Origin: Hysterangium stoloniferum
Taxonomy: Eukaryota > Basidiomycota > Agaricomycetes > Hysterangiales > Hysterangiaceae
Reading direction: 5' to 3'
Length of the DNA: 64,000 nt
NCBI GenBank assembly: GCA_015178975.1
Contig: WHVD01000173.1
Span: forward strand, 1-64,000
Shown: piece after piece, positions 7,101 to 60,330 of the stretch
How the letters are laid out: the number at the start of each line of letters is the position of its first letter
How positions within the stretch are numbered: position 1 is the first letter of the stretch
The notes under the pieces: model-generated
Databases searched by the model: none
Told to the model about the DNA's origin: nothing
What the model saw: only the letters and a program-made list of their open reading frames with translations
Position numbers and translations under genes: made by a program

Positions 7101-8636
7101 CCACTTTTATGACCCAAGCACTATGTCTGGCACCATCCCCATGGACTGTACCTGCTTCCCTGCATCGTGGTTAGAAGCTGTTATGGATAATGACGAGTCC
7201 ATGGACATATTACTGGAGAAAGTGTCCATTTTTAGTGACAGGGTGATTATGATCCCTAATCCAAAACGATGGCATGACTTCTTCAAGGATTGGCTGCATA
7301 AGAGTTTTGACATTCGACGATTGGCTCTCCACCAAGGTGTAGATATTCATATGGGACGGGAGGTTCATGGTAAGTATTAGCTCCTTATTCTGGTTCTGCT
7401 GTATGGTGTTATACTTACACATTGGAATTATAGCTCTTTACGAGTGTGAGTAAAGTGATCGGAGAGCTCACATGTATAAAGCCTCACTCATTCAAGTCTT
7501 TGATGGGAAGAGAAAGGCAATGAATTTTCTGGATATTCCAACAGCAGTTTCATTGCATCTGCCTGACATTTTACCATGAGTTCTCGCTGAGCTTGAGACA
7601 TGATAGGCTCCTTCTAAAGGTAGGCATCATTCCAGTATAATTTCATATGATATCTTGGCTGGGAATCGTGCTATGAATGACATGGTAGGATTTCCACAAT
7701 ATATATGACTAGATGGAGGCTTTGTGCAACTGAGGGAGCTCTTTCGAGAGCACACATTGATGCCAGGAAATTTGGTACTTGGATCCATATGGTGCATGGC
7801 ACAAAGCTATGGGTTGTTATATCAGGGGACATTGTAGAAACTTCACTGGAGGACCTGGACTATACGGCACATAAATGGACATACTATCTTCTGGAACCAG
7901 GAGACCAGTTGTGAGTGCCTGCTCATCTCGATTCCACACGCTCCCTCCTCCACTTTGGTTCTGATTTGTGTTTCCAGGTTCATGCCGGCTGGCACAATTC
8001 ACGCAGTGATGACATTGAATGACTCTTGGGTGGAAGGGGGGCATTTTTACGGGCGAAACTCTCTGCATTGGTCATTCTCAGCTGGCCTGTGAGAACATTG
8101 TCAAGGGCTTACCGATTGCAACACAGAGCATCCAGAATCTGAATACATCCTGCATGCATTATTAGAGACGTACCATGGAATACTGCTGTCCTATTTCCCT
8201 GATATACAGCAGGTGGGAGCGGAAGTCTGTCGTAAGTAGCATAGTTGAGTCCTGATTGGCACCTCATCCTCACAGTGGGGGATGGGCAGGGGATTCAAAT
8301 CCAAGAGCATACGAAGAAGTGTTAAATCATTGGCCACCCCTGGAGGAGCTCGCATATCTTCTGATCATGACAGGACATGCACACCACTTTGAGCCAGAGG
8401 CCATGGAAGGGGAGACTTATCATTGTTCTCAGGTTATTATCCTGACACAGGAAAAGAGCTTGGAACGAATCTTTAGCATTTTCAATTTCTGCCCAGAAAT
8501 TAAGAATCAGGTTCGACGGATTGAACGTGAAATGAGTGGGTATTTGAATTTGACGGGGGATAAGACACTTGACAGCTTATGTGATGCGGAGGGAGTACTT
8601 ATCACTCGGGATGAAATGGACCTAGATGTGATTTGA
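4190..8636 (+). pseudogene. Decayed JmjC-domain protein gene
   Basis: Collinear coding segments joined by GT-AG introns (for example 4951-5007, 6789-6826 and 7911-7977). The N-terminal part is acidic, followed by a long Pro/Ser-rich acidic linker (about 5640-6490), then the catalytic part. The first metal site is HID in AHIDARKFG (about 7753-7761), followed by GTKLWVV. The distal His is in PAGTIHAV (about 8000), followed by EGGHFY. This HxD...H arrangement is that of JmjC Fe(II)/2-oxoglutarate dioxygenases, some of which demethylate histones. The 8256-8636 segment is a helical C-terminal tail. Signs of decay: a one-base frame change in the C-run near 5879-5890, a stop near 7451, two more near 7580-7605, and a TGA near 8090. 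Plural JmjC paralogues are common in Agaricomycetes. Substrate unknown. Confidence 0.6.
5757..5850 (+). repeat. 15-bp tandem repeat coding Pro-Ser-Pro-Asn-Val
   Basis: The unit CCTTCTCCCAATGTT repeats about four times perfectly, with degenerate copies on both sides, inside the Pro-rich linker of the JmjC relic. The period is a multiple of three, so the frame is kept and the peptide PSPNV is iterated. Confidence 0.85.
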
Positions 8637-8639
8637 TTA

Positions 8640-9149
8640 GTAACCCCAGCCTGAGGGCATTTTTCTGTATGTATTATGGGACCGTTTGAAAACCAAGCCT
8701 TTGAGATTGTGACCGTGAAACTAAGGCCCAAGATCAAATGTCAGGGTGAGAATCATAGGTCACCATGGGCAGCTGTCCTGCCCTTCTTGCTGTGGAGAAA
8801 TATATGATTGACCCTTATGTATGATAGTGTTCTTTTAAGCACTACGGCAAGTACCAGAAGTTGAGTTGAATGGATATTAATAAAAAATAAAACAATGAGC
8901 TTTTTCATATCACTGCGACTTGTAGTAATTTCTTTCATGTCCCAGGCCTCATCCAGAGAAACCAAACAAAGCAATAATTAATATTTAAATAATAGATTAT
9001 TATTATCTAAAAACCAGCTGATATCATGTCACGTGACCTCCCGGTCACTTCTGCCTGCTACCACGTCTAATCAACTACAGCTCCCTCCTGATACCCAGCG
9101 GTCTTTATCCCTGCAGTCTGCTACCCTAATCATGAACCAAGAACTGTAC
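8640..9149. other. Intergenic, AT-rich, no gene seen
   Basis: The stretch follows the JmjC relic. It contains an AT-rich block (about 8970-9010) that could serve 3'-end formation, but no recognisable coding sequence or transposon end. Confidence 0.4.
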
Positions 9150-12118: not shown

Positions 12119-13382
12119 TTTTACTAAATGTTCTTGAAGAGATAAGAGGGGGGGGAAGCTTTTAGACTCATCCAACACTCCAGTCGTTTTTCACTCGCAA
12201 AGCCACCATGCGTCGCTCACTTTCCATTTGCTTGCCTTGCTTTCACATACCATACAGTGCATCAATACCATCCCATTCCATTCTGCAGCTACTCCCACAT
12301 TACTCTGATTTCCCTCCTTCATGTTCTCTTTCTCTCCCCACCCGTCCTGCCGCCTACACACCTACCATAAAACATGTACCATCAAACAATCCCAACAACG
12401 CCTTTGCACTCCTTTCCTTGTACCCATTCCTCAATCGCACTCCTAACACACTCCTTCGGTCTACCAAAAGTATTCATTTTACATACTTATACTGATGCGT
12501 AGATAGAATTGGGACATTTGATTGGTTTTTGTAGTCTCGGTCTACATGCACATTGCGAGATTTGGTGATTTGGTGGAGTGTGGATGTTGGTCATACCCCA
12601 CCTAATCCCTTGTTATCCTTTCTACATAGTAGTGGGGTTTGTATCCATAGTTGTATATGTTTGTATTCCTTTTTTGCTGAATACGATTGAATTGATATTT
12701 GCGCTTAAATCAATTAAACACAGTCCAGTTTAGTGAACCAGTTTTGAGTTGTACGTTCAAGCCTTTGACACAGGCGCATCCTCTTCCTTGAATGCCACTC
12801 AGATGCGGCATTCAGTCTCCCTCATTATCATAGTATCAGCGTTCAAGTAAGGCTATTATTATCCAGCTAAGACATAGCCATTGAGGTACATCTGCAGGAA
12901 CAACTACCACTTGACATTAAATACTATACCCTCGTCACTTTCATTTCGTTGTCCATGCTCATTATGAAACATGATGCTAAGCACGAGCTGTCAGCGTCAA
13001 GCTCACCGAACATCACGATCACAATCATGTGTATATAATCAAGTACATATGGAAAAAGCTCTTCGCCCAGATTTATTTCATTCGAAACCCATTTAGCACC
13101 TTCATTCTACGCCTCTCGGGAAATTGAGGATCAGGCTTCAAAATGTCATCTGTCGATTTCTTCTACACGTCCATTTGTGTGCAATGATCCCAGGGTATTG
13201 ATGGCTGACACATTTGTGATCTTAATGCCATTGAACCAGACAATATCAAGCTGATGTCTTCAGGATATTGATGGGTGGACATCACAAATCTGCTTTTGAG
13301 ATAGCTTGTAGGTATTGTAGATGTACAAGAGATGTATCAAAATCTGGATATCACTCGAAGACTATCACTAATATACAACACC
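12119..13382. other. Long intergenic stretch, no supported gene
   Basis: The first part follows the membrane protein gene and is C- and T-rich (about 12180-12480), then AT-rich. An open stretch at 12208-12495 has low-complexity composition and no motif. No terminal repeats or splice-supported exons were found. Confidence 0.4.
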
Positions 13383-14522
13383 TTAAAGTGTCTCAAGTCC
13401 TGGACTCTTTGTCAATAATCCCTCCTCAGGCACCTCCTCTGGGATTGTTGGTAAGTCAGCTTGCTTCCCTTTCTTTGACTTCTGGTTCTTAGCACAGGTG
13501 GCCTTTGCTTTGGCTCTCGATTCCAGCCACTTAGGCTGTCCAATTTCACGAGCCTATGCTGCAAATTTCTTGTGTTCAGCTAGTCGGTCATGGAAATAGT
13601 ATTTGGGTTTCCAGAGATCACTTGGCAGAGTCTCCCTAATAAGGTGTGCATTGTGGAGTGCATGCATATTCAGAATCCACCATGAATGGTCAGCATGAAT
13701 GACTGCAGTGTGTGTTCTGGAAGTCATGTCCCTGCCTTGCTTCACAGGAATATCAGCGACTGAGCATTTCAAGTTATCACAGTTATGTTGGGCATTGAAG
13801 ATAAAAAGAACTGCCTAAAAAACTTAGAATTACATCACAAGGTAAATTAGAAGGGACAGACCATGGGCAAAATTGCTTTCACAATGGCGGTTTGTGTTAA
13901 TATAGGGATGTTAAGTCGGTGACCAGCTCCTGCTGCAATGTTGAATTGCTCAATGATAACAATTGTGGAATCCTTCTTTGTGGAAGCATCTTCTTTGGCA
14001 GCAAGAATCCGGTAAATACGACCAGTAAGAACAATATGAGTTGAATGAACCTTTTAAATTTGTATGAGTTAAAAGCCTTGCTTGATATGAAAAACCCTGA
14101 ATGGCTCACTGTGACACCTTGTAATTTGGACTCAAAGAAATCCCAAGAACCTGGTTTGCAGATATCATGGGACGGAGAGACAATGAACTTGCACTGGACC
14201 CAGCTTTTAACCATAGCATGGTGAGGTAAGTGAATGGATGAAAGCTGAGCCAGCACATTTGCCCATGCACTGGGATTCTCTTTCTTTATGGAATGAGATT
14301 TAACATAGCCTACAGATAGGAATTTTAGTGACAATAAAGTGAGACTAGAGCACTAAGTAGGTGTCAAGTACTTACCAGCTGCAAGAGTTGAGAAATCTGC
14401 CCAACCCAGACGACACTGCAGTGCCTTGTTGTTTTGGAGGAAGTTTCTAACCTTATCCCCAGCCTGAATGTATCTATCACCACTATTCCACCACCCACCA
14501 CTCACTTGGTGCTTGAAGTGCT
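13383..14522 (-). pseudogene. 3' part of a conserved uncharacterised agaricomycete gene, truncated by Gyp-1
   Basis: Minus-strand exons run from about 14522 (LGWADFSTLAA, donor GTAAGT near 14373) through 14334-13890 and 13772-13554 to a stop at 13383. Recognisable stretches include SPSHDICKPGSWDFFESKL, FNIAAGAGHRLNIPILTQT and a C-terminal tail rich in Lys and Glu. I recall the same blocks in unnamed agaricomycete proteins, but their function is not known to me. Damage: a frame change after the SKAFNSYKF segment, a TAG near 13558 (probably CAG once), and loss of everything upstream of about 14522, where gypsy gag sequence begins on the opposite strand. Confidence 0.45.
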
Positions 14523-15292
14523 CCATATCAGTTTTAGCGGGATTTCCAAGGAAGAGCCGCTCTGGCTTGAAAATTGGGAGGCTTTTGTTGAGGAGCTTGA
14601 AACCAAATTTGGCCCATATGACCCGACAGGAGAAGCCGAGAATAGTCTCACAAATCTTCGTATGAAGGACACACAGTGCATCACGGACTACATTGTCCAA
14701 TTCATAATCTTGCAGCTCGTTGTCAGTGGGGCGATCCCGCTCTCCGCCACCAATTCTATGCCAGTCTGCTGTCCCGCCTTAAAGACGAAGTCTTGAAAGG
14801 AGAAGATCGCAAGCCAAAACCTTGTCCTGTATGCGCCTCAAAGCTCAAAACACGGATGCACGTTATTGGGAACATCATGCGGAAGTTGCCTGCGAGACCT
14901 CCGCAGACAAAGTAAACAAGTCCACGACCAATAAAAACAACAACAATAATTCGTCAACCAGCAACCAGAACTCCACACAATCCAACAAGAAGAACAATAA
15001 AAAGTCTTCAAACAACAACAACAACAAGGACAATAAGGACAATAACAAGGGTCAACAGTCCGGCAAGCAAGCCGGAAAACCTAACCTCTCAGGCAAACCC
15101 GATGGCAAATTGACCCCACAGGAAAGACAACGTCGTATGGACAACAACCTCTGTCTCTTGTGCGGGAAACCCGGTCATCGAGTCCCAGAATGTCCGCTGG
15201 CAAAAGCAAACTCTTCAAAGGGTCGAACAGCCAAGGCCTCCATGGAAACCCCGTCAAAGGACAAACCGGCTTCCGACTCGAAAAAAGAGTAA
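14523..15292 (+). pseudogene. gag: Gyp-1 gag, C-terminal part with zinc knuckle
   Basis: The segment starts in the capsid-like region (PLWLENWEAFVEEL, then FGPYDPTGEAE and DYIVQF). It continues through an Asn/Lys-rich low-complexity stretch to a perfect CCHC zinc knuckle (CLLCGKPGHRVPEC, about 15160-15200). Gag forms the particle and binds element RNA. The frame changes twice near 14700-14900. The first half is absent. It overlaps the start of the pol frame, as is usual in gypsy elements. Confidence 0.85.
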
Positions 15293-15396
15293 GCAACCCT
15301 GCGGACTCCGTGCGGGTTGGGGGTTGCGTTGCCTCTCCGCGCATTCAAGAGTTTACTCGCCTCAACACATCTGCTCTTTCACATTCTGATTCATTT

Positions 15397-17361
15397 TTCA
15401 TTAAACTTATGTCTAATATGATTCCGAAATTTGTTTTTTCAGCTCTCATAGATTCCGGCTCGACTCATTGTTTTTTAGATACAAAACTCACGCAAAACAA
15501 TTCTTTGTCAACTTATTCAATAAATCCTATCACACTCCGCCTCTTCGATGGCACAAGTAATTTGGTTGTTACCCAAGCTTGTGATTTACCCATCAGTTTC
15601 CCATGTGGAACATCTCAATTGGTCACTTTCTATGTGACCCAGTTAGACTCAAGTTGCTCGGTGGTCCTAGGACATAACTGGCTTACCCGCTACAATCCGT
15701 TGATTGACTGGATAGCTAACAGTATAACATTCCGGACTCCCACAGCAGCCGAGGAAACTGCGCCTGACCCGGCCTCCACGGCACCCATGGCCTTCCCGGC
15801 ACCTGCAGTCTCGAGGACTCCTGTGATCCCTATGGCACCAATGGCTTCCCTGGAACCCACAGCACCTCCATCCATTTCTCTGATTAATGCTGCAGCTTTT
15901 ATTAGGGCTTCAAAAATGGATGGGTCCCAGGTGTTCACTATCAACTTACAAATTGATGAAGCAACTGGACATTTTTCAACCCCGGTATCTGAATCTGAGC
16001 AAGCCGCTGACCTAGAAGGTGTCCCGGAGAAATATCATGACTTCATGGATGTTTTTAGCAAGCGGAAAGCTGACCGGCTTCTGCCTCACAGAGAATACGA
16101 CTTAAAAATCGATCTTGAAGATGGCGCTCAGCCACCCCTAGGGCATATTTACCCGCTGTCGTCCATGGAACTTTCCATAATCCGCGATTTCCTGGATGAA
16201 CATTTGTCCATAGGTTTTATCTGACCCTCAAAGTCTCATTTTGGAGCACCTGTTCTGTTTGTCAGAAAAAAGGATGGATCCCTTCGACTATGTGTTGATT
16301 TTAGAGGACTCAATGCTGTCACCAAGAAGGATAAATATCCACTACCACTTATATCTGATCTGCTCAATGCTCCGCGGAATGCCCGGATTTACACCAACAT
16401 AGATCTCAAGCACGCCTATCATTTGGTCCAGATTGCCGTGGGCGATGAATGGAAAACCACTTTTAGAACCCGATATGGGGCCTTTGAGTGGCTGGTGATC
16501 CCCTTTGGACTCTCCAATGCTCTGTCTGTTTTTCAGCATTTTCTCAACGACATGCTCGATGTATGCATCATTGTTTACTTGGACGACATTCTTATCTCCT
16601 CTGAGAATCCCACGGAACATGACAAACAAGTCCATGAAGTTCTCCAGAGGCTCAGACAACATGGTTTATTCACAAATGGTAAAAAATGTACTTTTGACAC
16701 GGACTCCGTGGAATACCTAGGTTTCATGATGGGACCCAATGGACTCTGCATGGATGAAACTAAAGTCCAAGTCATCAAAGATTGGCCCGAACCCCGAAAA
16801 GTTAAAGATATACAATCCTTCCTCGGCTTTGCCAATTTTTACCGACATTTTATCTGTGGATATTCCGACATCACGGTACCCCTTACCCATCTTACATGTA
16901 AGGGTACTCCATGGAATTTTAACAATAAGTGTCAAAAAGCTTTCAATATTTTAAAAAATTCTTTTTCTACAGCTCCTATTCTGTCGCATTGGAAACCAGA
17001 CTTCCCACTCATTGTTGAAATGGACGCCTTGGATTATGCACTTGGAGCCATTTTGTCTATCCAGGACTCCGATGGAGAAGTCCACCGCGTGGCTTTTCTG
17101 TCCTGGACTTTTACTGGAGCAGAGCTATGATAAAGAACTTCTGGCAATCTTTTCAGCTTTCAAAGCATGGCGACACTATTTGGAAGGTTCAGGAGCTCCT
17201 ATTGACATTGTAACAGATCACAAAAACCTGGAATACTTTTCTACCACAAAAATTTTGACCCGCCGGCAGGCTTGCTGGTCTAAATATCTATCTGCTTTCA
17301 ACATGATTATCTGCTTTCGACCCGGCCATCTCAGCGGCAAACCCGACACTTTAACTAGATG
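15397..17361 (+). pseudogene. pol: Gyp-1 pol: aspartic protease, reverse transcriptase, RNase H
   Basis: The protease shows the catalytic Asp in IDSGSTH (15451-15453) followed by SVVLGHNWL. The RT shows the catalytic YLDD at 16576-16587 and the motifs PFGLSNA and EYLGF. RNase H follows, with [10 protein letters not shown] and TDHKNLEYF. These make the DNA copy of the element and mature its proteins. A TGA at 16222 replaces what other RTs of the family have as Arg in an IRPS motif, and another TGA lies at 17360. A frame change with a short deletion interrupts RNase H near 17125. The RT is closely related to fragments in Gyp-2 and Gyp-3. Confidence 0.9.
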
Positions 17362-17362
17362 A

Positions 17363-17955
17363 TGGGATGTCTATCCTAAAGAGGGGAGCAACGACTATGC
17401 AACAGTAAATCCGCACAACCTGAAACCTATTTTCACGAATCAACAACTTACCGCATTGGTCTGCGCAACTTTCCTCATCAATCCCATTGTCCATGGAATT
17501 ATCATTATGGATATCAAGAAGTTACATCAAGATATTCTATTGGCAATTCCTCTAGACCCAGTTACTAAAGCTCACCTTGACAATCCCGTGGACCCCAGTC
17601 AACCCTGGTGGTCTCTTGATCAACATGGTTTCATTAGACTTGACGATCACATCTATGTACCAGACTCTGATGGCCTCCGCCTTAGGATCCTTCAATACAA
17701 ACATGATCATCCACTCTCAGGGCATTTCAGGTACAACAAAACTCTATCATTAATAAGAAGAGAATACACTTGGCCCGGACTCCGTGGATTCGTTAAGCAC
17801 TATTGTAAATCTTGCACTACTTGTCCCCGCTCGAAATCTCAGTGACACAAGCCATACGGCCTTTTGAAACAACTCCCAGTACTGGAACACCTGTGGAATT
17901 CTATCTCTATGGATTTCATTGAACATCTACCGGATTCCAAAGGCTTTTGTGCTAT
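17363..17955 (+). pseudogene. Gyp-1 integrase, N-terminal half
   Basis: It contains the linker YPKEGSNDYATVN and the zinc-binding HHCC region (HDHPLSGHF, then CKSCTTC), followed by the beginning of the catalytic core ([12 protein letters not shown], first catalytic Asp). A TGA at 17843 interrupts it. The core is cut at 17955 by a solo LTR and resumes at 19232. Confidence 0.85.
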
Positions 17956-18227
17956 TGTGATGTATCTAGTATATATTCACGAATTTTCCCTTAATTTTCC
18001 AGAATTTATTTCAATTTATTTTATTCTATTCTATTTTATTTATTAATTCAAGAATTAGGCTATTTTCCTTTTAACTTCGAATACTCAAAGCTTCGAATGA
18101 CATCATATTATGTAATCGAAGCCTAGAGCGGTCGAAATATAAGTATAATAAAGCCGGGTTATCTGATTTCGAGAGACCGGGTTTTTATTATATTATATTA
18201 GTACATATATGCGCATTATTATCGCGC

Positions 18228-18266
18228 GATCACGTGACATCACGTGACGACGACGTCACGACGTGT
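18228..18266 (+). promoter_or_regulatory. E-box / CRE-like cluster in solo LTR
   Basis: Two CACGTGAC motifs 10 bp apart are followed by GACGACGTCAC, so bHLH- and bZIP-type palindromes lie next to each other about 260 bp upstream of a TATA box. This is typical of a U3 promoter region. The binding proteins are inferred only from the motif type. Confidence 0.5.
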
Positions 18267-18517
18267 TTACAAATCATCGCGAGTAGTTTTCGCAGCCGCC
18301 CGGCCACGTTTATTTCCGTTTCGGCGCCACGGCTTATTTTGCTTCCACCCTCGGCCATCTCGGGTTTATTCTCTGACTCGACCGGTTCGGATCTTCGGTT
18401 CGGATCTTCGAGTCGGGTGATAGCTATGACATCATAGCGGAATTATAGAAACTTTTAGAAGCTTCCAATAATTTCCTAATTAGTTATTTAGCTATTATTA
18501 AGCAAAAATCTCTACAT

Positions 18518-18525
18518 GTATAAAA
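18518..18525 (+). promoter_or_regulatory. TATA box of solo LTR
   Basis: TATAAAAG is followed by a plausible leader beginning near 18550. If used, the R-U5 part is unusually long (about 680 bp). Confidence 0.6.
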
Positions 18526-19236
18526 GGAGGCCTAAATCACTGAATAAATAACAACAACTACTTTACTACTATCAACAGCACCAGCTCATAAGCTTATCTA
18601 ATCATCCTAAGGACAAAAATAGCCTTAGTCTGATTTACTAACTGCAAGCACCTACACTTGCAGCATTTTGAACTCTTTCTCAGCAACTCTTGAACTTAGC
18701 TAATTCATCTAAGTTCCCTCAGCTTCCCGGAAAACCTTTAGGCTTACTAATCACTTAAGTAAATCTAAATTCTCATTACTGAAATCCCTGCCCGTTTAGA
18801 TTATTCAAGAGCCCATTTTAACAGCACAGTTAATCGATCTTTAAACAAACGCTTGGATATTCGACTCTCAGACAATCTCTCTATTTATAAATTATTTAAC
18901 AGCTTGTTAAATCTTTATAAATAGTAAACTAAAAGGCTACAAGAAAGCGAAGGCTTACGACAAGTTTCCGCCAACTTATTGCACATACATTCAGCTCCCG
19001 AACCTTTATTCTCAAAGAGAACTTAACTTTCGTAGAGCACATCACTACAAGTTCATCTGAATTTGTCAAGAGACCAAACAAATATTGACTTTAGTTGTTT
19101 AAGCTTAATAGCGCAGCTAATTAATCTATCAGTATTTAAATTACTGGACCTTTATTTGTTTATTTCTTGAATCCCTTGCCGTGTCAACGCTTGTTAATTA
19201 TTTGAGAGAGTAAATAGCCGGATACCTTACAGCTAT

Positions 19237-20132
19237 TCTAGTTGTTGTTGACAGATTCTCAAAACAAGGTATATTCATCCCTACTTATGACACAATTACG
19301 TCCGTGCAGTTAGCAGAACTTTTCATTATCCACGTATTTTCCAAGCATGGAGTTCCATCCCACGTGACTTCCGATCAAGGATCAGAGTTTGTGTCTCACT
19401 TCTTTAGATCCCTCGGAAAATCCTTGGACATGACATTACATTTCACGTCCGGACATCACCTGGAAGGTGACAGACAAACCGAACACGTAAACCAGACATT
19501 GGAACAATACCTCCGCGTATATTGCAACTATCAACAGGACAATTGGAAATCCTTGTTACCACTTGCAGAGTTTGCTTACAACAATGCACCCTCGGCCACT
19601 ACTGGTGTTTCCCCGTTCTTTGCAAATAAAGGATATAATCCAAATATTACAGTACATCCAGAACGAAACCTCGCCTCTGTTCGTGCTCAAGAGTTCACCA
19701 CGGACCTCCACGAGCTCCACGAGGAACTCCGGACTGCAATATTTAGGTCCATTTGAAATTATCGCACAAGTAGGTTCAGTCTCTTGGACTCTACGGCTTC
19801 CAGATAGCATGCGCACGGTACACCCGGTATTTCATGTTTCTATGCTAGAACCTTGTACTGCTAACACTATCGCAGATTGCGTGCAATCTCTGCCTCCTCT
19901 GGTCATCATTGATGGAGAACCCGAGTTTGAAATCTCACAGATTTTAGATTCAAAAATAGACAAGCGTCGACACACTTGTAAACTGCTTTACTTGGTGAAG
20001 TGGGCGGGTTATGAGGGCACCAATGAAGAAACCTCATGGATTTTGGCCATGGAACTCGGTAATGCCACGGAAATCATTACTGACTTTCATACAGCTTACC
20101 CACTCAAACCTGGATCATTATCATCTCTATGA
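19237..20132 (+). pseudogene. Gyp-1 integrase C-terminal half and chromodomain
   Basis: The integrase core resumes with VDRFSKQGIFIPT, the second catalytic Asp in TSDQGSEF and the Glu region around HVNQTLEQYLRVY. A deletion near 19738 removes the linker after the core and changes the frame. Then come YLGPFEI, HPVFHVSML and the chromodomain (about 19915-20130), with FEISQILDSK, LVKWAGYEG and ETSW supplying the aromatic cage residues. Chromodomains of chromoviruses direct integration to modified chromatin. The stop is at 20130-20132. Confidence 0.9.
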
Positions 20133-20331
20133 CCGCACTCCACGGACCCCGTGTTACGTTTGGACTCATTTTCATTATTCCCTGTCACCCTATGTCTCTC
20201 TTTGCTTTTACAGGTTCTGACATGTCTTGTCAAGTCCTTAAGCGGACCCTCCACGGACTTTGGCTTTGACTTGGATTCTTATGTTTTCTCACGCTTTACT
20301 TTTATGTTCAAATTAATATCAAGTTTTATTA

Positions 20332-21338
20332 TTATTCTTCATCTACATTGATGGGGCTATCTTTTTTCCCCGCCTCTTTTTCTGCCTCAGCTTTTCCCGC
20401 CTCATTCATCTCCTTGGGTAGCTCCGTGACCTCCACGGGCACCTCCTCCTCATCTGAACTGGCCTCCTCAGAACTCCTGTCCTCCGGCTTGTCATATACA
20501 AGGCCAGCATACTCCATCAGGAATTTGAAGTGGTCCCCGCGGATTGTGTGGAGATTGTTCGCCATAATGACGCTGACTTTGTTGCTCTTCCAGAGCAACT
20601 TGTTTTGGGCTTCAATGCCCTTGGCGATCCGTCCCAAGGCTTCCTCCAGACCGGAGTACCCATCCGACCCGCCATTCTCCCGTGAACCGGACCCTGCGGC
20701 CTGCTCGTGAACAAGCAAGCACCTCGCCGTGCACTGGTAACACCCCAGGCCCTGGCCGGACTTCCGATTGCACTCAGTGTTCCGGTCATTACAACCAGAA
20801 CACCGTGGGTCGTTCTGAGCCAGTAGGCAGACTGGCACCGCCTTCCTTGCTTTCTGTTGATACGGTTAGCTCCACGGTATACCCACGGACCCGAGACTCA
20901 CCTTGTTAGGGCTTTCTGGCTCCCCCTCGGACTCAGACTCGACTTCTGCCGCCTTGCACTGAAAATGCCAAGTCAAAAAAAAAAAGTGACAAGTTGATCT
21001 ATGGGACTTACCTTTCCTGCAACAACTGCGGCTCTGTCCGTGGCCACCCGGGCTTTCTCTGCCACCACCCTGGCCTTCTCTGCGGCCACCCGTGCAGCCT
21101 CCTCCTCCTCCCTCTGCTTCTGCCTTGCAGCCTCTTCCTCCACAGCCATGGCCGCCTGGTATTCCCTATTCAGGGCCTCCTCAACCTCCCAGGCTTCTTG
21201 CTCTGCCTCTTCTCGCTGTCAACATTGCTCATCCTGCTGCACCAAGATTTGGGCAGTGGACAGCAGTGCCCAGTACTGACTGCCCATGGAGGGCCCAGCG
21301 GTTGGCATAGGCTTGCGCGGCATGGGCTTTGGTCCCAT
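20332..21338 (-). pseudogene. Antisense Zn2Cys6 gene of Gyp-1 (two introns)
   Basis: The gene lies on the strand opposite to Gyp-1, between chromodomain and 3' LTR. Exon 1 is 21338-21012, exon 2 is 20958-20902 and exon 3 is 20853-20332. The introns have GTAAGT/TTTTCAG and GTGAGT/CAACAG ends, both phase 0, giving 301 codons. Order: a start rich in Pro and Met, a Glu/Ala/Arg-rich probable coiled coil, then the cysteines CX2CX6CX9CX2CX3C (20802-20719), then an acidic helical tail. Copy 2 in Gyp-6 has the canonical last spacing (X6), so this copy probably lost 9 bp. A TGA at 21221-21219 interrupts exon 1. A TATATAAA-type box lies about 50 bp upstream. The family resemblance is to Gal4-type zinc clusters, which bind DNA. 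Regulation of the element, or an antisense-RNA role, is inference. Confidence 0.72.
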
Positions 21339-21535
21339 GTTATCGATGATGGGGGTAATAAAGAAGAAGAAATTCCTATTTTTTCAAATTTATATATAGG
21401 CTCGTCACATTTGAACCTTACCTTCCGGATCACATGACTCTTTGACACATACGTGTAACCGACATGACTTTTGACACATGCGCGTAGCCGACAAGAACCT
21501 TATCTAGGTCTAGAGCCTCTTTGGGACTTTGGCAT

Positions 21536-21548
21536 AAAGGGAGGGTAC
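21536..21548 (+). other. Polypurine tract of Gyp-1
   Basis: AAAGGGAGGGTAC lies directly before the 3' LTR, at the place where plus-strand DNA synthesis is primed. The same GGGTAC junction precedes the LTR at 41758, and its complement follows the LTR of Gyp-6. Confidence 0.8.
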
Positions 21549-22388
21549 TGTTACGACCAGACAATCCTGCCAGACTCCGGGCACTAACCCGTACGCCCCC
21601 ACATGCTACAAGCACCAATTGTCTGTTTATAGGATTTCCTGCCCAGACTCCGTTACGTCAAGACTTGTTACATTTGACCTCATTACGACACATATCAGTC
21701 ACTGGACTTCCCCTGGACTCCGTCTCTGTCTATGTCCATCTTCATCCCACGCATCAGTAACGGGACCCCACTCAGAATCCCGTCACCACTCTAATCGAGC
21801 CCCATTCCCATTTTAGTCAAATGACCTGTCACGATTTAGGACTCCGCTCCCGCTCCATTTCCCGTTATGGGTTATGCTTTGTCATTATTTGGACTCCGCT
21901 CCGTTCCATCCCGTTCCTAACACCAATTTGGTGTTTACTATTCCCGTTTTATGTTTTGTTAGTTTTGTTTTGTCATTACTGGATTTGGTATGTCATTCAC
22001 TCCATGGTCTATATAAACTGCCAGATGTTGTACATACAATCTAGTCAGAAAATTAGCTTAGATTCCCCCCAGTAATCTAATAACATTTTCCGCTCTAAAA
22101 CCTTACTTGATTCACATCGCTTTCACTAGTCGGAGCCCATGGGCTCCGGCGCATCTATCTCTCTCAACTCTCTCGACTCATGACCCACGACCTCCGACTT
22201 ATGACCCACGACCCCCGGCTTACAACCTATGACCCACAAACCCTGCCCGGACTCCCCGGGATCCCCATCTGCCTGTTTGAAATTGGACAACACGATCTAG
22301 TGAGGGCGCAGCCTATAAGCTGAAGCCAAGTCCTACTGGATATCCCACGGGTTTCTCCGGAAACCCGCCCTGTGTGTGTATCCTAACA
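21549..22388 (+). repeat. 3' LTR of Gyp-1 (840 bp)
   Basis: TGTTACGACC at the start and CCTAACA at the end. It contains CTATATAAAC (about 22009-22018) as a TATA-like box and the conserved block ATAAGCTGAAGCCAA (about 22315-22329). It is related to the LTRs at 52625-53446 and 59310-60122. It abuts Gyp-2 integrase sequence on the right (AGAGT at 22389-22393 would be the target duplicate). No left partner is present. Confidence 0.92.
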
Positions 22389-24291
22389 AGAGTGTGGACA
22401 AGTAATGCAAGATTTACAACAGTGCTCAACAAAATCTCGGAGTCTGGGCCAAGTGTATTCTCTTCTTATTAATGATAGGGTTTTGTTGAAACCAAAATGT
22501 CCCAAGAGTGGATGGTCATGTTTGTACTGGAGAATCCTGAGGCAGAGGCCATTGGAGTGCAGTACATAGGAGGATAACCCAAAACTTTTAAAAGTTATTT
22601 ATCCACTAAAGTATATATAATTATATTGTTTGTTGTAAAATTAATATTTAATCAAATTCAGTCTATCAGATGACATTCTGGAGAATAACAAAATATTTAT
22701 ATTTATCTTGTATCTGACAAAAGTTAGTCAAACAGACATATATGGATTATCCTTTTGGGGATAAATTCCACAACAAGGATTGGTTGGCCAGATAGTTCTG
22801 GTTAACTTTCTAAACCAAATAAATTTAAATTATATGAACTACATTTGAAAGTTTGCATAATATACAAGAGAATACATCTCATTCCAATGATTAAGTCATA
22901 ACCCAAATAATTTTGGTTAACTATAATGTTTGTGGATATTTTAAAAGTCACAGAGATACTAGAGAATGCATCTCATCCCAAAGATTAAGTCATAACCCGA
23001 GTAATTTTGGTTAACTATAATGTTTGTGGACATTTTAAAAGTCACAGAGATACTAGAGAATGCATTTTATCCCAAAGATTAAGTCATAACCCAAATAATT
23101 TTGGTTAACCATGACATTTATGCATATTTTAAAAGAGCATACAAGTCTTAAAGATGAAATTTTGGGGTAATGAGATATAAACTCCTAAAACATGTAGTCA
23201 TAGCCAGAGTAAATAGTCTCACTTAAACATATGAGGACTTTTCCATAAAATTTTGCATATTCAATGAGGTGTGACTATCCTCCATATGTATATACAATTG
23301 TCAAGTCTAATGAAACCATGCTGGTCAAGAGACCCCCAGCGTTGACTGGGGTCCATGTGATTGTCAAGGTGTGATTTGGTTATTGGATCTAGTGGAATTG
23401 CCCATAGAATATCTTAATGTAGTTTCTCATGTCCATAACAATAATTCCACAGATGATGAGATGGATGAGAAAAGTTGCACAGACTGATGCGGTATGCTGT
23501 TGATTCATGAAAATGGGTTTCAAGTTATGGGGGTTTACTGTGGCATAGTTGTTACTCCCTTCTTTAGGATAGATGTCCCATTGTCTAGTCAAAGTGTCAG
23601 ATTTGGTGCCAAGGTGGCAGGTTGAAAACAGACAATCATATTAAAGGCTGATAGGTACATATTCAGACCAATGGGCCTGCCAGTGGGTCAAGAGTTTCAT
23701 AGTTGAAAAGTATTCCATGTTTTTATAATCTGTTACAATGTCAATCAGAATTCCCGAGCCCTCCAAATAGTGTCACCATGATTTGAAAGCTGCAAAAATT
23801 GCGAGTTCCTTGTCATGGACATCATAATTAAGCTCTGGTCCAGTGAAAGTCTGGGATAGAAAAGCCACAGGGTGGACTTCTGCATTGGAGTCCTGGATAG
23901 ACAGAATGGCTCCAAGTGCATAGTCTGAGGCATCTGTCTTAACAATGAGCAGAATGTCCAGTTTCCAGAATTGGAGCTGAAGAAAAAGAATCTTTTAAAA
24001 GATTGAAAGCTTTTCAACACTTATCATCAACATTCCACTGGTCACCCTTGCATGTAAGATGAGTAAGGGGAACTGTGATCTTGGAATACCTGTGGATAAA
24101 CTGTCAGTAAAAGTTGGTAAAGCTGAGGAAAGATTGTATATCTTTGACTTTTCCAGGTTCTGGCCAATCTTTGATGACTTGTACTTTGGCTTCATCCATA
24201 TGGAGTCTGTCAGGTCCCATTATGAAACCTAGATACTCCACGGAGTCTTTGTCAAAAGTACATTCTTTACCATTTGCAAATAGACCATATC
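22389..24291 (-). pseudogene. Gyp-2 pol fragment: RT thumb, RNase H, integrase N-terminus
   Basis: From 24291 downward the frame reads GLFANGKECTF and DSVEYLGF. Interrupted RNase H segments (about 24190-23745) and the integrase linker YPKEGSNNYATVN (about 23570) follow. After a TIR element come the zinc region (KHDHPLLGHF) and a CXXC, ending at 22389. It lacks protease, RT fingers/palm with the catalytic YxDD, and the integrase core. Multiple frame changes occur. Collinear with Gyp-1 throughout. Confidence 0.85.
22569..23283. mobile_element. TIR element 1 (715 bp) in Gyp-2 integrase
   Basis: The ends are GGAGGATAAC and its approximate complement (GACTATCCTCC), flanked by the 3-bp duplication ATA (TAT on the other strand). 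The interior is AT-rich, has no ORF, and carries three diverged tandem copies of about 106 bp (22880-23110, with the phrase TAATTTTGGTTAAC). Short TIRs, no coding capacity and 3-bp duplications suggest a MITE, perhaps PIF/Harbinger-like. Confidence 0.7.
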
Positions 24292-26464: not shown

Positions 26465-27031
26465 CTACCCTCTCTTTACCCCCTGAGACAATGGCGGTAG
26501 ACCACTCTGTGCCAAGTCCGCCACCAGGTCTGGTCCCGTTACACCCGTCACCGCATCCCAGAGCCGGACGGTGTTGTCAACAGAACCGGACACAATGCGA
26601 GTCCCGTCCGGCGAAAACAAAACCGAACAAATGCAAGACGTGTGTCCCTCGAATGGCTCCTGCAATGGCTCTCCTGTCGCCACATCCCAGAGCCGAACAG
26701 TGATGTCATCAGAACTGGACACGATCCAAATCCCATCCGGCGAAAATGATACCAAAGAAACCGAATCCGTGTGTCCCTCCAATGGCTCCTGCAACGGCTC
26801 TCCCTTCGCCGCATCCCAGAGCTGGACAGTGCGGTCATCAGAACTGGACACGATGCGAGTCCCGTCCGGGGAAAATGAGACCGAAGTAACTGAATCCATG
26901 TGTCCCTGCAAAGGTTCCTGTAACGGCTTTCCCGTCGCCGCATCCCAGAGCCGGATGGTGTTCTCACAAGAACTGGACACGATTCGAGTCCTGTCTGGTG
27001 AAAATGAGACCAAAGAAACCCAAGATGTGTG

Positions 27032-27415
27032 TGTTAGAAAGTAAGACTAATAATAAACTCAGTCTCATATATGGGTATAACGGACTAATATATAAAATAC
27101 TTAATAATAAACTAAAGTACATGTAAGTATACCAAAATGCATAAATTAAAGTAAAGTGGCTCACCTCAGTCTTGTATATGGGTATAACGGACTGAGGTGT
27201 GGATACGTTCTGGCTACAGTATATATACTGAATATATCAATTAGTGATAGGAACAAAGGAAATATTGAGTAAGGGGAATATGAGATAAAGAGAGCAACGA
27301 GACATGCGGCTACACCTTGGTTCCTTATGTGTCCACGTGGTCTCTTATTACTTCGACCCTGCGTACTCTTGTTCATCCAAATATAGCAAGGGAGGTTCTA
27401 CGGTGTTATCCAACA
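27032..27415. mobile_element. 384-bp LTR-like insert in a WD40 repeat
   Basis: The ends are TGTTAG...CCAACA. The flanks share TGTG (27028-27031 and 27416-27419). Removing the insert and one TGTG recreates the WD-repeat sequence found in all sibling repeats. No ORF of note. Two internal copies of a TATGGGTATAACGGACT phrase occur (about 27075 and 27180). It is a solo LTR or short non-autonomous retroelement. Confidence 0.78.
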
Positions 27416-27783
27416 TGTGTCCCTGGAACGGCTCCTGCAATGGCATTCCCGTCGCCACATCCCAGAGCCGGACAGTGTTGTCAAAAGATCCGGACACGAT
27501 GCGAGCTGACTAATTGGTGCCATCACCTATAGCTTGCAATCAACCTTAATGTATGATGGGGGGGAGGAGGAGGATTGCCTGTCCTCTCACCAGCAGACAA
27601 ACAGCCCGAGTGTGAGATGGAGGAACATGCCACTTCCCACCTACCACACACAGTCGGCTTGTTCCTACCTCCATGCCAACTCCCCCAAAATAAATAAACA
27701 TAATGGTGTAATAGTATAAGCAGAAGCAGTGAGATAAAAAAAAAAAAAGAAAAAAAGAGTTTAAAAACTACATCCCGGCAACA

Positions 27784-32466: not shown

Positions 32467-34372
32467 GTATATATGCCAAAAAAAAAACGAAGTATAAGCA
32501 GTTCAAACACGAACTGCCGTCGATAGACCACTTTTAAAAGATTCTACTCGAGCAGACGAGTAGGTAGTATGTTGTCTGAAGTAGGTGCCTTGTTTCCACC
32601 TTAGTCAGCACCTTCTGATCCCGAAACTCTCCTTGTTCGCAGCGGGTTCAGTAAGTATAGTCCCGTCCGGCGAAAACGAGACCGAAGAAACCCAAGACAT
32701 GTGTCCCTGGAACGGCTCCTGCAACGGCTTTCCCGTCGCCGCATCCCAGAGTCGGACTGTGTTGTCCTCACCGCATCCCAGAGCCGGATGGTCTTGTCAC
32801 CAGAACCAGACACGATCCGAGTCCCGTCCGGCGAAAACGAGACCGAAGAAACCCAAGACGTGTGTCCCTCCAACGGCTCCTGCAACGTTTTCCCGTCACC
32901 GCATCCCAGAGCCGGATGGTATTGTCAGAAGAACCGGACACGATCCGAGTCCCGTCCGGCGAAAACGAGACCGAACAAACGCAAGACGTGTGTCCCTCGA
33001 ACGGCTCCTGCAATGGCTCTCCCGTCGCCGCATCCCAGAGCCGGATGGTATTGTCAGAAGAACCGGACACGATCCGAGTCCCGTCCGGCGAAAACGAGAC
33101 TGAATCAACCGAATCCGTGTGTCCCTGGAACAGCTCCCACAACGGCATTCCCGTCGCCGCATCCCAGAGCCGGACAGTGCTGTCATCAGAACCGGACACG
33201 ATCCAAATCCCGTCCGGGGAAAATGATACCGAAGAAACCGAATCCGTGTGTCCCTCCAACGACTCCTGCAACGGCTTTCCCGTCACCGCATCCCAGAGTC
33301 GGACTGTGTTGTCCTCAGAACCAGACACGATGCGAGTCCCGTCCGGCGAAAATGAGACCGACCAAACCCAATCCCTGTGCCCGCGAATTACACTTTGATG
33401 AACCGGCCAGTTGATATTATTCCAAGAAGCCAATTGAAGAGTATTAGGATATTTTTCATTGAATTTGCGTGATATAATGGAGTTACTTGGCGACCACGGA
33501 AGTGCTGACAGGTATAGGTGCGGAGTGCTGTATGCAATTGCAACACCAAACACCTGAATGAATCTGACAACATCTGATACAGTGGAAGCAGCATCTTCAT
33601 ATCCAGCATGCTCCTACCATGATCCATTAACATCTTCCATTGTTTCCATTATTAAATGATAAAAAAGCAATGGAATTACTTCTAACAAAATAAATCAAAC
33701 TATTCTTAATCACTAACCTTTAGCCACCCAGTTATTCGCAGAAGTTCTAAATCTGTGCTACTTGTCAGAGCATCGACCAGGCTGAGTGCTTCGAGCCAAA
33801 ATAGTATACGTTCATCATTAATGAATGATACCACTTCCTCAACCAGGCATTTTTCGAGAGCAATTCTTTCCTCCTCATTTACGGTTCCATCGCGCGGTGT
33901 TTCCAGAATATGTTTCATCCAGAACCGACATGAATATGATAGGTGAGGGGAGATCCATCTCTTCACGCTTTCTCGCAGGCCCGGAATCTGTGCATTAGGG
34001 TAGTACGACGAGCCTATCCCACAAATGTTAACACAAAGACCACCAGCCATAACTCGCAACGAGGCGAATGCAAGGTAATATTGCACCTTTGAGACATCAA
34101 CAAAAAATTCTTTACTAAGATTTTGATCTGTGAGGAAGTCACGAAATGATGCATGAAGAGGTCGGATAGTGGAAGCTGAGTCTGTTACCCCACTCAGAAG
34201 GGAGCCCATGTGTTTCACCACCAACTCCACGTCATAACGGTCATTTATGTTTGGGAATTCGAGTCGCATGCTATTTAAAGCAATTAGGGGAAGATGTTCG
34301 GCTGCGCCAAGCACTTGACTCATCACTGAACGGAACCTTGACAGGAATTCTGAACGATTCCGAAACTCGACT

Positions 34373-49653: not shown

Positions 49654-50043
49654 TGTTATGACCGGAATTCCCACTGGACTCCAGGTACCAACCTATATGC
49701 ACCCACACCCTGTATGCACCAATTATCAGTTTACTGGAATACCTGCCAGACTCTGTACATCAGACTTGTCCACATTTGACCTTCATTACTTCATGTATCA
49801 GTCACTGGAATACCCACCAGACTCCGTCTCTGTCTATCCCCGACCTGTCCCATGCATCAGTCACTGGACCCGCTCGGATTACCTGTCATCCCTCTAACTG
49901 AGCCCCATTCCTGTTATGAACATATGACCTGTCACAATTCAGACTCCGCTCTCACCCCATTCCCATTTACAGTCTAATGACCTGTCACATTTCGGACTCT
50001 GCCCCACTCCATTCCATCCCTAACACCAAATCTGGTGTTTACT
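49654..50043 (+). repeat. Truncated gypsy LTR (5' part)
   Basis: It begins TGTTATGACCGGAATTCCC, very close to the solo LTR at 52625, and stops after TAACACCAAATCTGGTGTTTA, where GC-rich unrelated sequence begins. Confidence 0.85.
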
Positions 50044-50045
50044 TA

Positions 50046-50220
50046 TCGCGCCCTCACGAACACGGCCTGCGGCGCCTAAGAACGCCCACAGACCCACCAT
50101 GCTCCTTTCACTTATTTGACAAGCTTAGGAACCCTTGCTACGCTGCGGGCTCCAGCTTGTTGGGGGGCGAAGCCCCCCAAACCCCCCCGCGTCAACAACT
50201 TTTAAGTATTTCTGAGGCTC
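50046..50220. repeat. GC-rich dispersed block with hairpin
   Basis: It contains the hairpin GGGGGGCGAAGCCCCCC (50162-50178) between CTACGCTGCGGGCTCCAGC and GTCAACAACTTTTAAGTAT. A diverged relative lies at 35575-35700. I infer a terminal piece of an unidentified repeat family. Confidence 0.6.
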
Positions 50221-50227
50221 ATTGTTT

Positions 50228-50490
50228 GAATGGAAAGTGTTCTAAGAACGGAAAGTGTTCTAAGAACGGAAAGTGTTCTAAGAACGGAAAGTGTTCTAAG
50301 AACGGAAAGTGTTCTAAGAACGGAAAGTGTTCTAAGAACGGAAAGTGTTCTAAGAACGGAAAGTGTTCTAAGAACGGAAAGTGTTCTAAGAACGGAAAGT
50401 GTTCTAAGAACGGAAAGTGTTCTAAGAACAGAAAGTGTTCTAAGAACAGAAAGTGTTCTAAGAGCAGAAAGTGTTCTAAGAATGGAAACA
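50228..50490. repeat. 18-bp minisatellite A
   Basis: About 14 tandem copies of GAAAGTGTTCTAAGAACG, nearly perfect at the left and more varied at the right. Period 18 leaves several frames open. These are not genes. Confidence 0.95.
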
Positions 50491-50519
50491 TCAGTCACAA
50501 ATGGAAGCCACAGCCCCAA

Positions 50520-51115
50520 AAGAAAACAATGGTTACAAAAGGAGACAAAGGTTACAAAAGGAAACAACAGTTACAAAAGGAAACAACGGTTACAAAGGAA
50601 ACAATGGTTACAAAAGGAAACAACAGTTACAATGGAGACAATGGTTACAAAAGGAAACAACAGTTACACAGGAAACAACAGTTACACAGGAAACAACAGT
50701 TACACAGGAAACAACAGTTACACAGGAAACAACAGTTACACAGGAAACAACAGTTACACAGGAAACAACAGTTACACAGGAAACAACAGTTACACAGGAA
50801 ACAACAGTTACACAGGAAACAACAGTTACACAGGAAACAACAGTTACACAGGAAACAACGGTTACAAAAGGAGACAAAGGTTACAAAGGAAACAATGCTT
50901 ACAAAGGAGACAATGGTTACAAAATGAAACAACGGTTACAAAATGAAACAACGGTTACAAAGGAAACAACAGTTACAAAGGCAACAATGGTTACAAAGGA
51001 AACAACAGTTACACAGGAAACAACAGTTACAAAAGGAGACAAAGGTTACAAAGGAAACAATGGTTACAAAGGAGACAATGGTCACAAAAGGAAACAATGG
51101 TTACAAATGGAAAGA
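50520..51115. repeat. 18-bp minisatellite B
   Basis: About 30 copies of an 18-bp unit such as AGTTACACAGGAAACAAC. A homogeneous core (50655-50850) is flanked by varied copies (AAAGGAGACAAAGGTTAC). It lies about 30 bp from minisatellite A. Confidence 0.95.
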
Positions 51116-51438
51116 GTGGTTAAATTGACTCTCAACTGCAAGTAATTACTGTGGTCACTCAATTTATTTATTTTGATTTAACATATTTTATTTTGATTTA
51201 TTGAATTTTATTTTATTTTATTGTTTTTCATTTCAATTTATTTTATTTTTAAACATTTTACATTCATGTATTATATTTTATTTGAATTATTCTGATTTTA
51301 TTGAGGCCGATCAGAGGGAGATGGAGGAAGAAGGAAACAGTACACACAGCAGCTGGACAAAGAGAGAAGGAAATAGTACACACACTCACTGAAGAAAGGG
51401 TACACAGGCCACCTGGAGGAAAGAGAGGGCTGGTCAGA
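51116..51438. other. AT-rich low-complexity spacer
   Basis: TTTTATTT-type runs (51150-51300), then a purine-rich stretch with a repeated GTACACACA phrase. No gene. Confidence 0.5.
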
Positions 51439-52624: not shown

Positions 52625-53446
52625 TGTTATGACCGGAATTCCCACCAGACTCTGGGCACTAACTTATACACACCCGCACCCTATACGCACCAATTGTCAG
52701 TTTACCAGAATTCCCACTGGACTCTGTACATCAGACTTGTCTATGTTTGACTTCATTACATTGGTGTTTCAGTCACTGGAATACCCACTGGACTCTGTCC
52801 CTGTCTATGTCCGACCCCATCCCACACATCAGTCACTGGACCCCTCTCAGAATACCCGTCATCCCTCTAACTGAGCCCCATTCCCATTTTAGTAAATGAC
52901 CTGTCACAATTCAGACTCCGCTCCTGCTCTGTTTCCCGTTATGGTTTATGATTTGTCATGATTTGGACTCTGCTCTGTTCCATCCCATTCCTAACACCAA
53001 ATTTGGTGTTTACTATTCCCATTTTATGTTTTGCTAGTTTCGTTTCATTATTACTGGATTTGGTATGTCATTCACTCCACGGTCTATATAGTCTGGCAGA
53101 TGTTGTATATACAATCCAGTCAGAAAATCAGCTTAGATTCCCCCAGTAATCTAATACATTTTCCACTCTAAACTCCTACTTGAAATACATGCTCACGCTA
53201 GTTGGAGCCCATGGGCTCTGGCGCATCTATCTCTCTTATTTATCTCGACTCCCGACCTCTTGACCCACGACCTCTCACCTCCGACCTCTTGACCCACGAA
53301 CCCCGCCCAGACTCCCTGGGATTCCCGTCCACCTGTCTGAAATTGGACAACATGATCTCATGAGGGTGCAGCCTATAAGCTGAAGCCAAGTCCTACTGGA
53401 TATTCTGCAGATTTCTCTGGAAACCCGCCATGTACGTACCCTAACA
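52625..53446 (+). mobile_element. Solo gypsy LTR (822 bp)
   Basis: TGTTATGACC...CCCTAACA with a perfect 5-bp duplication ATAAT at 52620-52624 and 53447-53451. It belongs to the Gyp-1 LTR family and includes the ATAAGCTGAAGCCAA block (53375-53389) and a TATA-like CTATATAG. Confidence 0.93.
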
Positions 53447-60140: not shown

Positions 60141-60267
60141 GAAGTCCCAAAGAGGCTCTAGACCTCAATAAGGTTCTTGTTGGCTACGTGCATGTGTCAA
60201 AGTCATGTCAGTTACATGTATGTGTCAAAGAGTCATGTGATCTGAAAGGTAAGGTTCAGACATGATG

Positions 60268-60330
60268 TGCCTATATAAAAATTTGAAAAAATGAAAATTT
60301 CTTCTTCTTTATTACCCCCATCTCACCATA
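60268..60330 (+). promoter_or_regulatory. Antisense promoter region of Gyp-6
   Basis: TATATAAAAATTTG (60271) lies about 60 bp before the ATG of the antisense gene. The Gyp-1 copy has TATATATAAATTTG at the corresponding place, followed in both by TTTCTTCTTCTTTATTACCC and the ATG. Confidence 0.65.

Follow-up and report, generated by a model that had tools for sequence, protein, structure and literature searches.

Sequence evidence for a zinc-cluster-like, intron-containing antisense gene carried by a chromodomain Ty3/gypsy element of Hysterangium stoloniferum

Antisense genes of long terminal repeat (LTR) retrotransposons have so far been functionally unexplained. Here, we describe such a gene in a 64,000-nucleotide stretch of the basidiomycete fungus Hysterangium stoloniferum (assembly GCA_015178975.1, contig WHVD01000173.1, positions 1 to 64,000 of the forward strand; hereafter the window), where it lies on the minus strand at 20332-21338, inside a chromodomain-bearing Ty3/gypsy element. 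Articles are cited from excerpts of their text. Among the closest described systems is brtn, an antisense gene of the Boty elements of Botrytis and Sclerotinia, which is listed with antisense open reading frames (ORFs) located between pol and the 3′ LTR (excerpt of PMC7264820) and is further covered in excerpts of PMC8365987 and PMC5987419. The Boty polyprotein has a CHROMO domain (excerpt of PMC4227169). As excerpted, Boty is thus also a fungal CHROMO-domain element with an extra gene antisense to gag-pol and between pol and the 3′ LTR. However, its host is an ascomycete, and the two systems are compared here by description only.

In plants, some of the antisense ORFs of Retand, Grande, and RIRE2 have a nuclear or predicted DNA-binding product, which is a further likeness (excerpts of PMC11963269 and PMC7264820). 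Those of Retand elements carry a TRP28 domain that is predicted to bind DNA (excerpt of PMC11963269), and the antisense ORF of Grande has its own upstream promoter (excerpts of PMC7264820 and PMC11963269). Unlike the Hysterangium element, Retand is described in these excerpts as a non-chromovirus, and TRP28 is said to occur only in proteins of flowering plants. The Hysterangium gene is further set apart from the plant antisense ORFs by its six-cysteine cluster, its two conserved introns, and the conflicting gene and LTR trees described below. The HBZ protein of human T-cell leukemia virus type 1 (HTLV-1) has a nuclear location and a role in the virus cycle (excerpt of PMC11963269), and the HTLV antisense promoter lies inside the LTR (excerpt of PMC7264820). 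The Hysterangium gene would resemble HBZ in that transcription runs antisense from the 3′ end of the retroelement and yields a nuclear regulatory product; it is unlike HBZ in that the latter is a bZIP protein of a retrovirus of people, with its promoter within the LTR. HBZ is made from a spliced antisense transcript and has a helical dimerization part, and we know of no sequence relation between it and the Hysterangium product. In our searches of open-access full texts, we noticed no paper on a fungal element whose antisense gene is described as spliced or zinc-cluster-like. Antisense terms gave no match in excerpts of PMC3411680 and PMC2864245; for the elements of the latter, the legend of one figure notes extra ORFs without a known function. 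What appears new among the antisense accessory genes of LTR elements is the spliced, zinc-cluster-like variant in a fungus; the antisense gene itself has precedents.

The features of the gene copy at this locus (copy 1, or W1) are listed below in the direction of the gene.

20332-21338, minus strand: antisense gene copy 1, a pseudogene; spliced frame of 302 codons including the stop, with TGA at codon 40
21434-21492, minus strand: tandem 29/30-bp repeat upstream of the TATA box, inside the segment with the highest conservation of those measured in the 3′ part of the element
21389-21400, minus strand: TATA-like box of the antisense gene, copy 1
21336-21338, minus strand: ATG start codon of copy 1
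21012-21338, minus strand: exon 1, with the N-terminus and a Glu/Ala/Arg-rich probable coiled coil; in-frame TGA at 21219-21221
20959-21011, minus strand: intron 1, 53 nt, phase 0, GTAAGT...TTTCAG
20902-20958, minus strand: exon 2, 57 nt, an acidic/serine stretch
20854-20901, minus strand: intron 2, 48 nt, phase 0, GTGAGT...CAACAG
20332-20853, minus strand: exon 3, with the cysteine cluster, C-terminal helix, acidic tail, and stop codon (20332-20334)
20719-20802, minus strand: six-cysteine cluster, with the last loop 9 nt shorter in W1

An earlier note on this DNA had described a minus-strand gene with a TATA-like box, an ATG, and two phase-0 GT-AG introns, situated between the end of the chromodomain (20129) and the 3′ LTR (21549-22388) and directed away from the LTR. 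We were able to find all of these in the window sequence. The note speaks of a 301-codon frame and overlooked the TGA at codon 40 (21219-21221) that breaks it. A basic stretch resembling a nuclear localization signal (NLS) arises in copy 1 across the intron-2 junction, where exon 2 meets exon 3. The last cysteine loop of W1 reads C-x3-C because 9 nt kept by other aligned copies are missing here. All other aligned copies that have the cluster read C-x6-C, including relatives of the same type, and C-x3-C was therefore rejected as a family trait; the deletion looks private to W1. Given this loss and the TGA at codon 40, the full modeled protein could not be made from W1, and its sequence identifies copy 1 as the fossil of a real gene.

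We considered 68 copies, of which 56 span the gene and 12 do not; L010, which is the same place as L034, was left out, and L067 is without exon 3. The sampled copies were drawn non-randomly, from lists ranked by similarity to W1, to the chromodomain of W1, or to a second copy in the window (W2). Exon edges were taken from the alignment, and some frameshifts may be over-called. The ATG is kept in 55 of the 56 gene-spanning copies. The donor GT and the acceptor AG of intron 1 are each kept in 54, and those of intron 2 in 56 and 55, respectively. No exon is frameshifted in 30/56 copies, and 27 of these 30 keep the cysteine pattern C-x2-C-x6-C-x9-C-x2-C-x6-C; W1 is among the three that do not. A branch-like motif (CTAAC, CTGAC, or CTGAT) occurs in intron 1 of 38/56 copies and in intron 2 of 55/56, and an A(A/T)TAAA hexamer lies no more than 90 nt past the stop in 42/56, all counted without a shuffled control. 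Additionally, the gene has its own TATA region, conserved across copies. Pieces of the gene are already deposited at NCBI as hypothetical proteins of H. stoloniferum (P0001-P0003), one of which matches the genome of the window at 99% over 137 residues. P0002 excises intron 1 at exactly the same sites, although the intron there is 30 nt long and open, and it shares the intron-2 donor with our model; P0002 is a gene prediction and is not known to be RNA evidence.

The genome comprises 111 Mb in 554 contigs, and our searches scored the best 150 candidates only, so that the counts are lower bounds. Exon 3 of W2 gave 1456 first-look candidates, and 150/150 of the best were matches, the weakest listed at E 5.8e-69. 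Exon 3 of W1 gave 1028 candidates with at least 150 scored matches, including 19 copies with one identical score, which is a sign of recent amplification. One copy, L031, is by its sequence a young, full element in which none of the three genes is interrupted. Its LTRs (677-1497 and 7955-8775) are 821 bp long and identical, with TGTTA..TAACA ends, and it has a polypurine tract and, by eye, a 5-bp target duplication. Open frames cover gag (437 codons), pol (1304 codons from stop to stop), and the antisense gene, the last placed between the end of pol (6548) and the 3′ LTR (7955). In the gene of L031, exons of 327, 57, and 501 nt are separated by two introns of 49 nt each, and the stop follows codon 294. 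In L032, the LTRs are 99.6% identical, and the antisense gene is intact too.

The antisense position between pol and the 3′ LTR recurs in all five long loci examined (L031-L034 and L069). We also picked by eye, from the best 150 chromodomain matches, 14 chromodomain ends without a listed gene match. At least part of exon 3 was found in the 3′ flank of 13/14, in every case antisense and downstream, with several of these matches interrupted, partial, or displaced; the other flank has only the first 15 codons of the gene. The position in the five long loci, the conserved TATA region, and purifying selection together uphold the view that the gene belongs to the element.

For estimates of selection, we used six intact copies (L031, L020, L030, L057, L037, and L042), leaving out L032 as near-identical to L031. 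The ratio of nonsynonymous to synonymous divergence (dN/dS), calculated by the Nei-Gojobori method and not with a codon model, was 0.14-0.30 in 15/15 intact pairs, and the bootstrap upper limits did not exceed 0.41. By exon, it was 0.13-0.27 for exon 1 and 0.11-0.33 for exon 3. The range became 0.10-0.28 once codons with CpG-type changes were dropped, and CpG decay was therefore rejected as the cause of the low values. A set of 30 pairs, most of which include a broken copy, gave 0.14-0.32. One frame of the opposite strand is also lowish (0.15-0.49 in the 30-pair set; 0.15 against 0.14 for the gene in L031 vs L020), which we attribute to its third positions coinciding with those of the gene. 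In 6/6 pairs, sites that discriminate between frames favor that of the gene against every one of the five alternatives, with ratios of 1.9-13.2, four of the six copies used being broken; a coding frame on the sense strand of the element was rejected on this basis. The earlier note had raised the prospect that other members might lack the ORF or carry it without purifying selection, and the result of this check favors the gene. Because splice sites are kept in 54-56 of 56 copies and the coding frame beats the five others in all six pairs, the pattern is not due to chance. Judged from its sequence, the gene is real, element-borne, intron-containing, and under selection.

The predicted product has 288-313 residues. 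Read from the N- to the C-terminus, it begins proline-rich and continues with a region rich in Glu, Ala, and Arg that is probably a coiled coil (by eye), the NLS-like stretch KRK..SPQKKARK (also by eye), the cysteine cluster in the middle of the protein, a long helix, and an acidic tail. Zn2Cys6 clusters span C-x2-C-x6-C-x5-12-C-x2-C-x6-8-C, and the antisense cluster, with C-x2-C-x6-C-x9-C-x2-C-x6-C, fits this range. For a comparison with host proteins, 12 Zn_clus loci were fetched, 7 of which had a cluster readable by pattern. The profile of the antisense cluster matched these seven with a score of 20.0 and a probability of 43%, aligning all six cysteines, as against scores of at most 15.1 and probabilities of at most 7.5% in 30 column-shuffled controls. 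A PDB sequence search gave a best E of 0.12, from a helix-only match to talin. Weak Pfam matches to AvrD, TAF4, and others, below cut-off where a cut-off was shown, were treated as chance. A scan of viral contigs returned 25 pattern matches, none of them a relative.

Next, we compared segments of the 3′ part of the element in 18 copies that cover all of them, using L031 as the reference and leaving out L010 and L032. The segment upstream of the gene (L031 7807-7942, 136 bp) has the highest mean identity to L031, at 94.3%. It is followed by the pol end (92.3%), the TATA/5′ leader (90.7%), the rest of the LTR (89.4%), the gap between pol and the gene (87.9%), the start of U3 (83.0%), the coding exons (81.7%), and the introns (81.4%). 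The upstream segment exceeds U3, the LTR rest, the introns, and the exons in 18/18 copies, and the pol end in 16/18. The exons fall below pol and the LTR rest in 18/18, below the U3 start in only 10/18, and below the introns in 8/18. On these figures, the gene body and the U3 start are about equally divergent, and both belong to the parts of the element's 3′ end that diverge fastest. In the sampled LTRs, with L010 left out, the U3 start (L031 7955-8200) falls into two classes, with about 87-100% or 74-80% identity to L031, which do not track the types of the antisense gene. The tandem 29/30-bp upstream repeat has the core TTTGACACAT, which in L031 is found only there.

Pairwise comparisons of L031 with W1, L069, L033, L034, and W2 (L032 was set aside as near-identical) gave 84-99% identity per window in pol, 92-99% in the upstream segment, 75-94% in the LTR, and 74-80% in exons 1 and 3. 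The contrast is sharpest in L069 and W1, where U3 is 91-94% identical to L031 and the gene 74-80%. Between L031 and L069, synonymous divergence (dS) is 0.19 in pol and 0.73 in exon 3, and the divergence of the gene body was therefore not ascribed to mere element age. Between L031 and the window copy, dS is 0.15-0.19 in pol and 0.75 in exon 3. Divergence is also uneven within the protein. When the two allele types are compared, identity is 90% in the cluster, 75-79% in the N-terminus and the NLS/acidic stretch, and 60-63% in the linker, coiled coil, C-terminal helix, and tail.

Trees were built from 26 copies, or from 20 in the case of pol, where W1 and L003 are missing. The LTR tree unites L031, L020, L027, L028, L030, L069, W1, L023, and L003 in one clade with 100/100 support, and the pol tree groups the other seven (without W1 and L003) at 94/97. 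The gene tree places L003 and L023 outside this group, and a branch of length 0.31 carries L069 and W1. When L031, L020, L027, L028, L030, L069, W1, and L023 are held together, a clade named after the identity table had been made, the gene tree rejects the grouping (P value of the approximately unbiased test, p-AU, 0.001) and the LTR tree does not (0.298). Conversely, L015 groups with the L031 type in the gene tree (84/85), and the LTR tree rejects this placement with a p-AU of 1e-110. The gene and LTR trees thus disagree, most simply through recombination: we infer that alleles of the gene were swapped between LTR backbones, as template switching would allow.

We consider a self-encoded nuclear regulator the likeliest role of the antisense product, with a probability of roughly 55% given the sequence evidence at hand. 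In addition to gag and pol, a basidiomycete family of Ty3/gypsy chromoviruses would then have a third product, an accessory protein expressed from its own antisense transcription unit, which lies after the end of pol and before the 3′ LTR. A Pol II transcript would start beside the 3′ LTR and be spliced and translated. The protein may reach the nucleus by means of its NLS-like stretch and dimerize through its helical parts, and its cysteine cluster may act on the element's own DNA. The candidate target is the tandem repeat, strongly conserved, that lies upstream of the TATA box. In this way, the protein would tune both how its own gene is expressed and how the element is, similarly to retroviral antisense regulators. 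A conserved cluster facing a conserved site, together with diverged helices, is what might be expected of a regulator with a shared target and a differing partner. The introns can persist in a retroelement because the genomic RNA is the opposite strand, on which they are not splice sites; an element copied through RNA can keep spliced genes only on the strand antisense to that RNA, as the introns here show. Selection, the two introns, the cysteine cluster, the sharply bounded upstream site, and the inferred allele swaps give the Hysterangium case concrete predictions, namely target DNA and cross-dimerizing alleles. If borne out, these would link fungal retrotransposons to the HBZ-like control of retroviruses.

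A bolder and, in our view, doubtful extension is that the antisense gene is a swappable specificity module. Elements almost alike in pol, LTR, and upstream site would carry anciently diverged, functional alleles of a self-made regulator, whose DNA contact is conserved and whose dimerization parts are not. Exchange of alleles would then let an element escape cross-repression by resident copies, and the whole would amount to a system for controlling retrotransposon copy number or superinfection.

Several results weigh against a nuclear regulator. Only 7/56 copies are fully intact under the aligned model, and 49/56 are not. Three word-based protein searches, one of which scored the best 7995 candidates only, returned no homologues outside H. 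stoloniferum. The gathering cut-off of Pfam Zn_clus (PF00172) was never reached, with a best score of 20.3 bits (L033) against 21. At E <= 1, Zn_clus matched 17/33 exon-3 products, leaving 16/33 without a match, and the product of W1 has none. Furthermore, the loop between the second and third cysteines, NDRNTE, has no basic residues, whereas those of the seven host clusters are RRRRIK- or RKQKSR-like. An AlphaFold2 model of the exon-3 product was poor (mean predicted local distance difference test score, pLDDT, 48.4), with helices after each cysteine pair and at residues 69-123, and a Foldseek search with this poor model gave no match. The earlier note knew of no fungal chromovirus with an antisense zinc-cluster gene, and its reading is weakened by brtn in Boty, a fungal chromodomain element that already has an antisense gene (excerpts of PMC7264820 and PMC4227169). 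The note's label of Gal4-type survives in part: the six-cysteine spacing agrees with fungal Zn2Cys6 factors, but the sub-cut-off Pfam scores, the missing host-type basic loop, and the mid-protein position of the cluster do not. Because Zn_clus stays below cut-off and the loop is non-basic, we call the predicted protein only zinc-cluster-like.

These same two features of the cluster would suit a non-regulatory accessory protein that serves the replication cycle, in the handling of genomic RNA or cDNA, in nuclear import, or in integration, and whose cluster contacts nucleic acid or protein. The probable coiled coils and the acidic tail would suit scaffolding, and the functions of plant antisense ORFs are likewise called unknown (excerpt of PMC7264820). 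However, a nuclear regulator accords better with the basic stretch that resembles an NLS and with a TATA promoter that is both separate and conserved, and no other segment measured in the 3′ part is as conserved as the upstream DNA. We regard the accessory role as possible, if a good deal less probable than a regulator.

Rather unlikely is an antisense transcript that is itself the functional product, pairing with sense RNA to feed small-RNA silencing or disturbing the 3′ end of the element. A convergent transcript from the conserved promoter would overlap the element's RNA, and antisense control has been proposed for other retroelements (excerpt of PMC7264820). However, the low dN/dS in every intact pair and the preference for the gene frame show that the protein is under selection, and antisense RNA may act in addition to it.

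Capture of a host gene that still serves the host, or did so recently, seems very improbable to us. The introns, TATA box, and zinc-cluster-like domain do resemble a cellular gene, and 52 places in the host genome match Zn_clus at E <= 0.01, with a seven-cluster host profile that aligns at all six cysteines. None of the 52 places, however, falls at a listed antisense-gene place (by eye). No copy outside the element was recognized, though no systematic search for one was made, at least part of the gene accompanies 13/14 of the sampled pol ends, and its alleles have diverged inside the element family. An ancient capture is a possible origin of the gene. Finally, although W1 is broken and long sense frames also span the region, a functionless, composition-driven antisense ORF of a Glu/Ala-rich region, or a chance ORF of any kind, is hardly credible and was rejected, being refuted by the conserved splice sites, purifying selection, and frame preference.

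The remaining features of the two elements in the window are as follows.

16225-17130, plus strand: reverse transcriptase/RNase H piece of pol; RVT_1 108.3 bits and RT_RNaseH_2 61.1 bits, above cut-off; flanked by stops
19926-20129, plus strand: chromodomain, the C-terminal end of pol; Pfam Chromo 32.8 bits, cut-off 25.1
21536-21548, plus strand: polypurine tract of the copy-1 element, by eye
21549-22388, plus strand: 3′ LTR of the copy-1 element, 87.7% identical to the L031 LTR
59310-60110, minus strand: 3′ LTR of the W2 element, 81.6% identical to the L031 LTR over the match
60182-60285, plus strand: upstream repeats and TATA-like box of W2
60331-61256, plus strand: antisense gene copy 2 (W2), in a second element of reverse orientation and matching gene order

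The copy-1 element is decayed, with stops in pol and a 1.27-kb insert near 17966-19242, and a self-comparison of 13000-22800 found no 5′ LTR for it. Upstream of the chromodomain, an integrase piece falls narrowly below the Pfam cut-off (rve, 31.8 vs 32.6), and the order of integrase followed by chromodomain at the C-terminus of pol is that of gypsy elements. The insert (17966-19242) is AT-rich, splits the integrase, and is bordered by what may be a 5-bp duplication (CTAGT); it could be a solo LTR from a different family. In W2, exons 1 and 2 are frameshifted and the intron-1 donor has changed from GT to GA, and the cluster C-x2-C-x6-C-x9-C-x2-C-x6-C is intact. Two further LTRs of the same family were seen on the plus strand, neither with an adjoining element: a full-length one at 52625-53446 (81.6% to the L031 LTR), which is probably solo, and a partial one at 49654-50043 (73.6%).

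Elsewhere in the window, two 262-bp direct repeats that are 99% identical surround about 0.8 kb of DNA with a GC-rich core at 54874-56192 (GC is 56% at 55-56 kb), which looks like a small non-autonomous LTR element. Tandem repeats of 129 bp (43 codons) form two blocks at 26509-27505 and 32598-33449, which we take to resemble WD40-type repeat genes. Long arrays of an 18-bp tandem repeat lie at 50174-51145 and 63505-63990.
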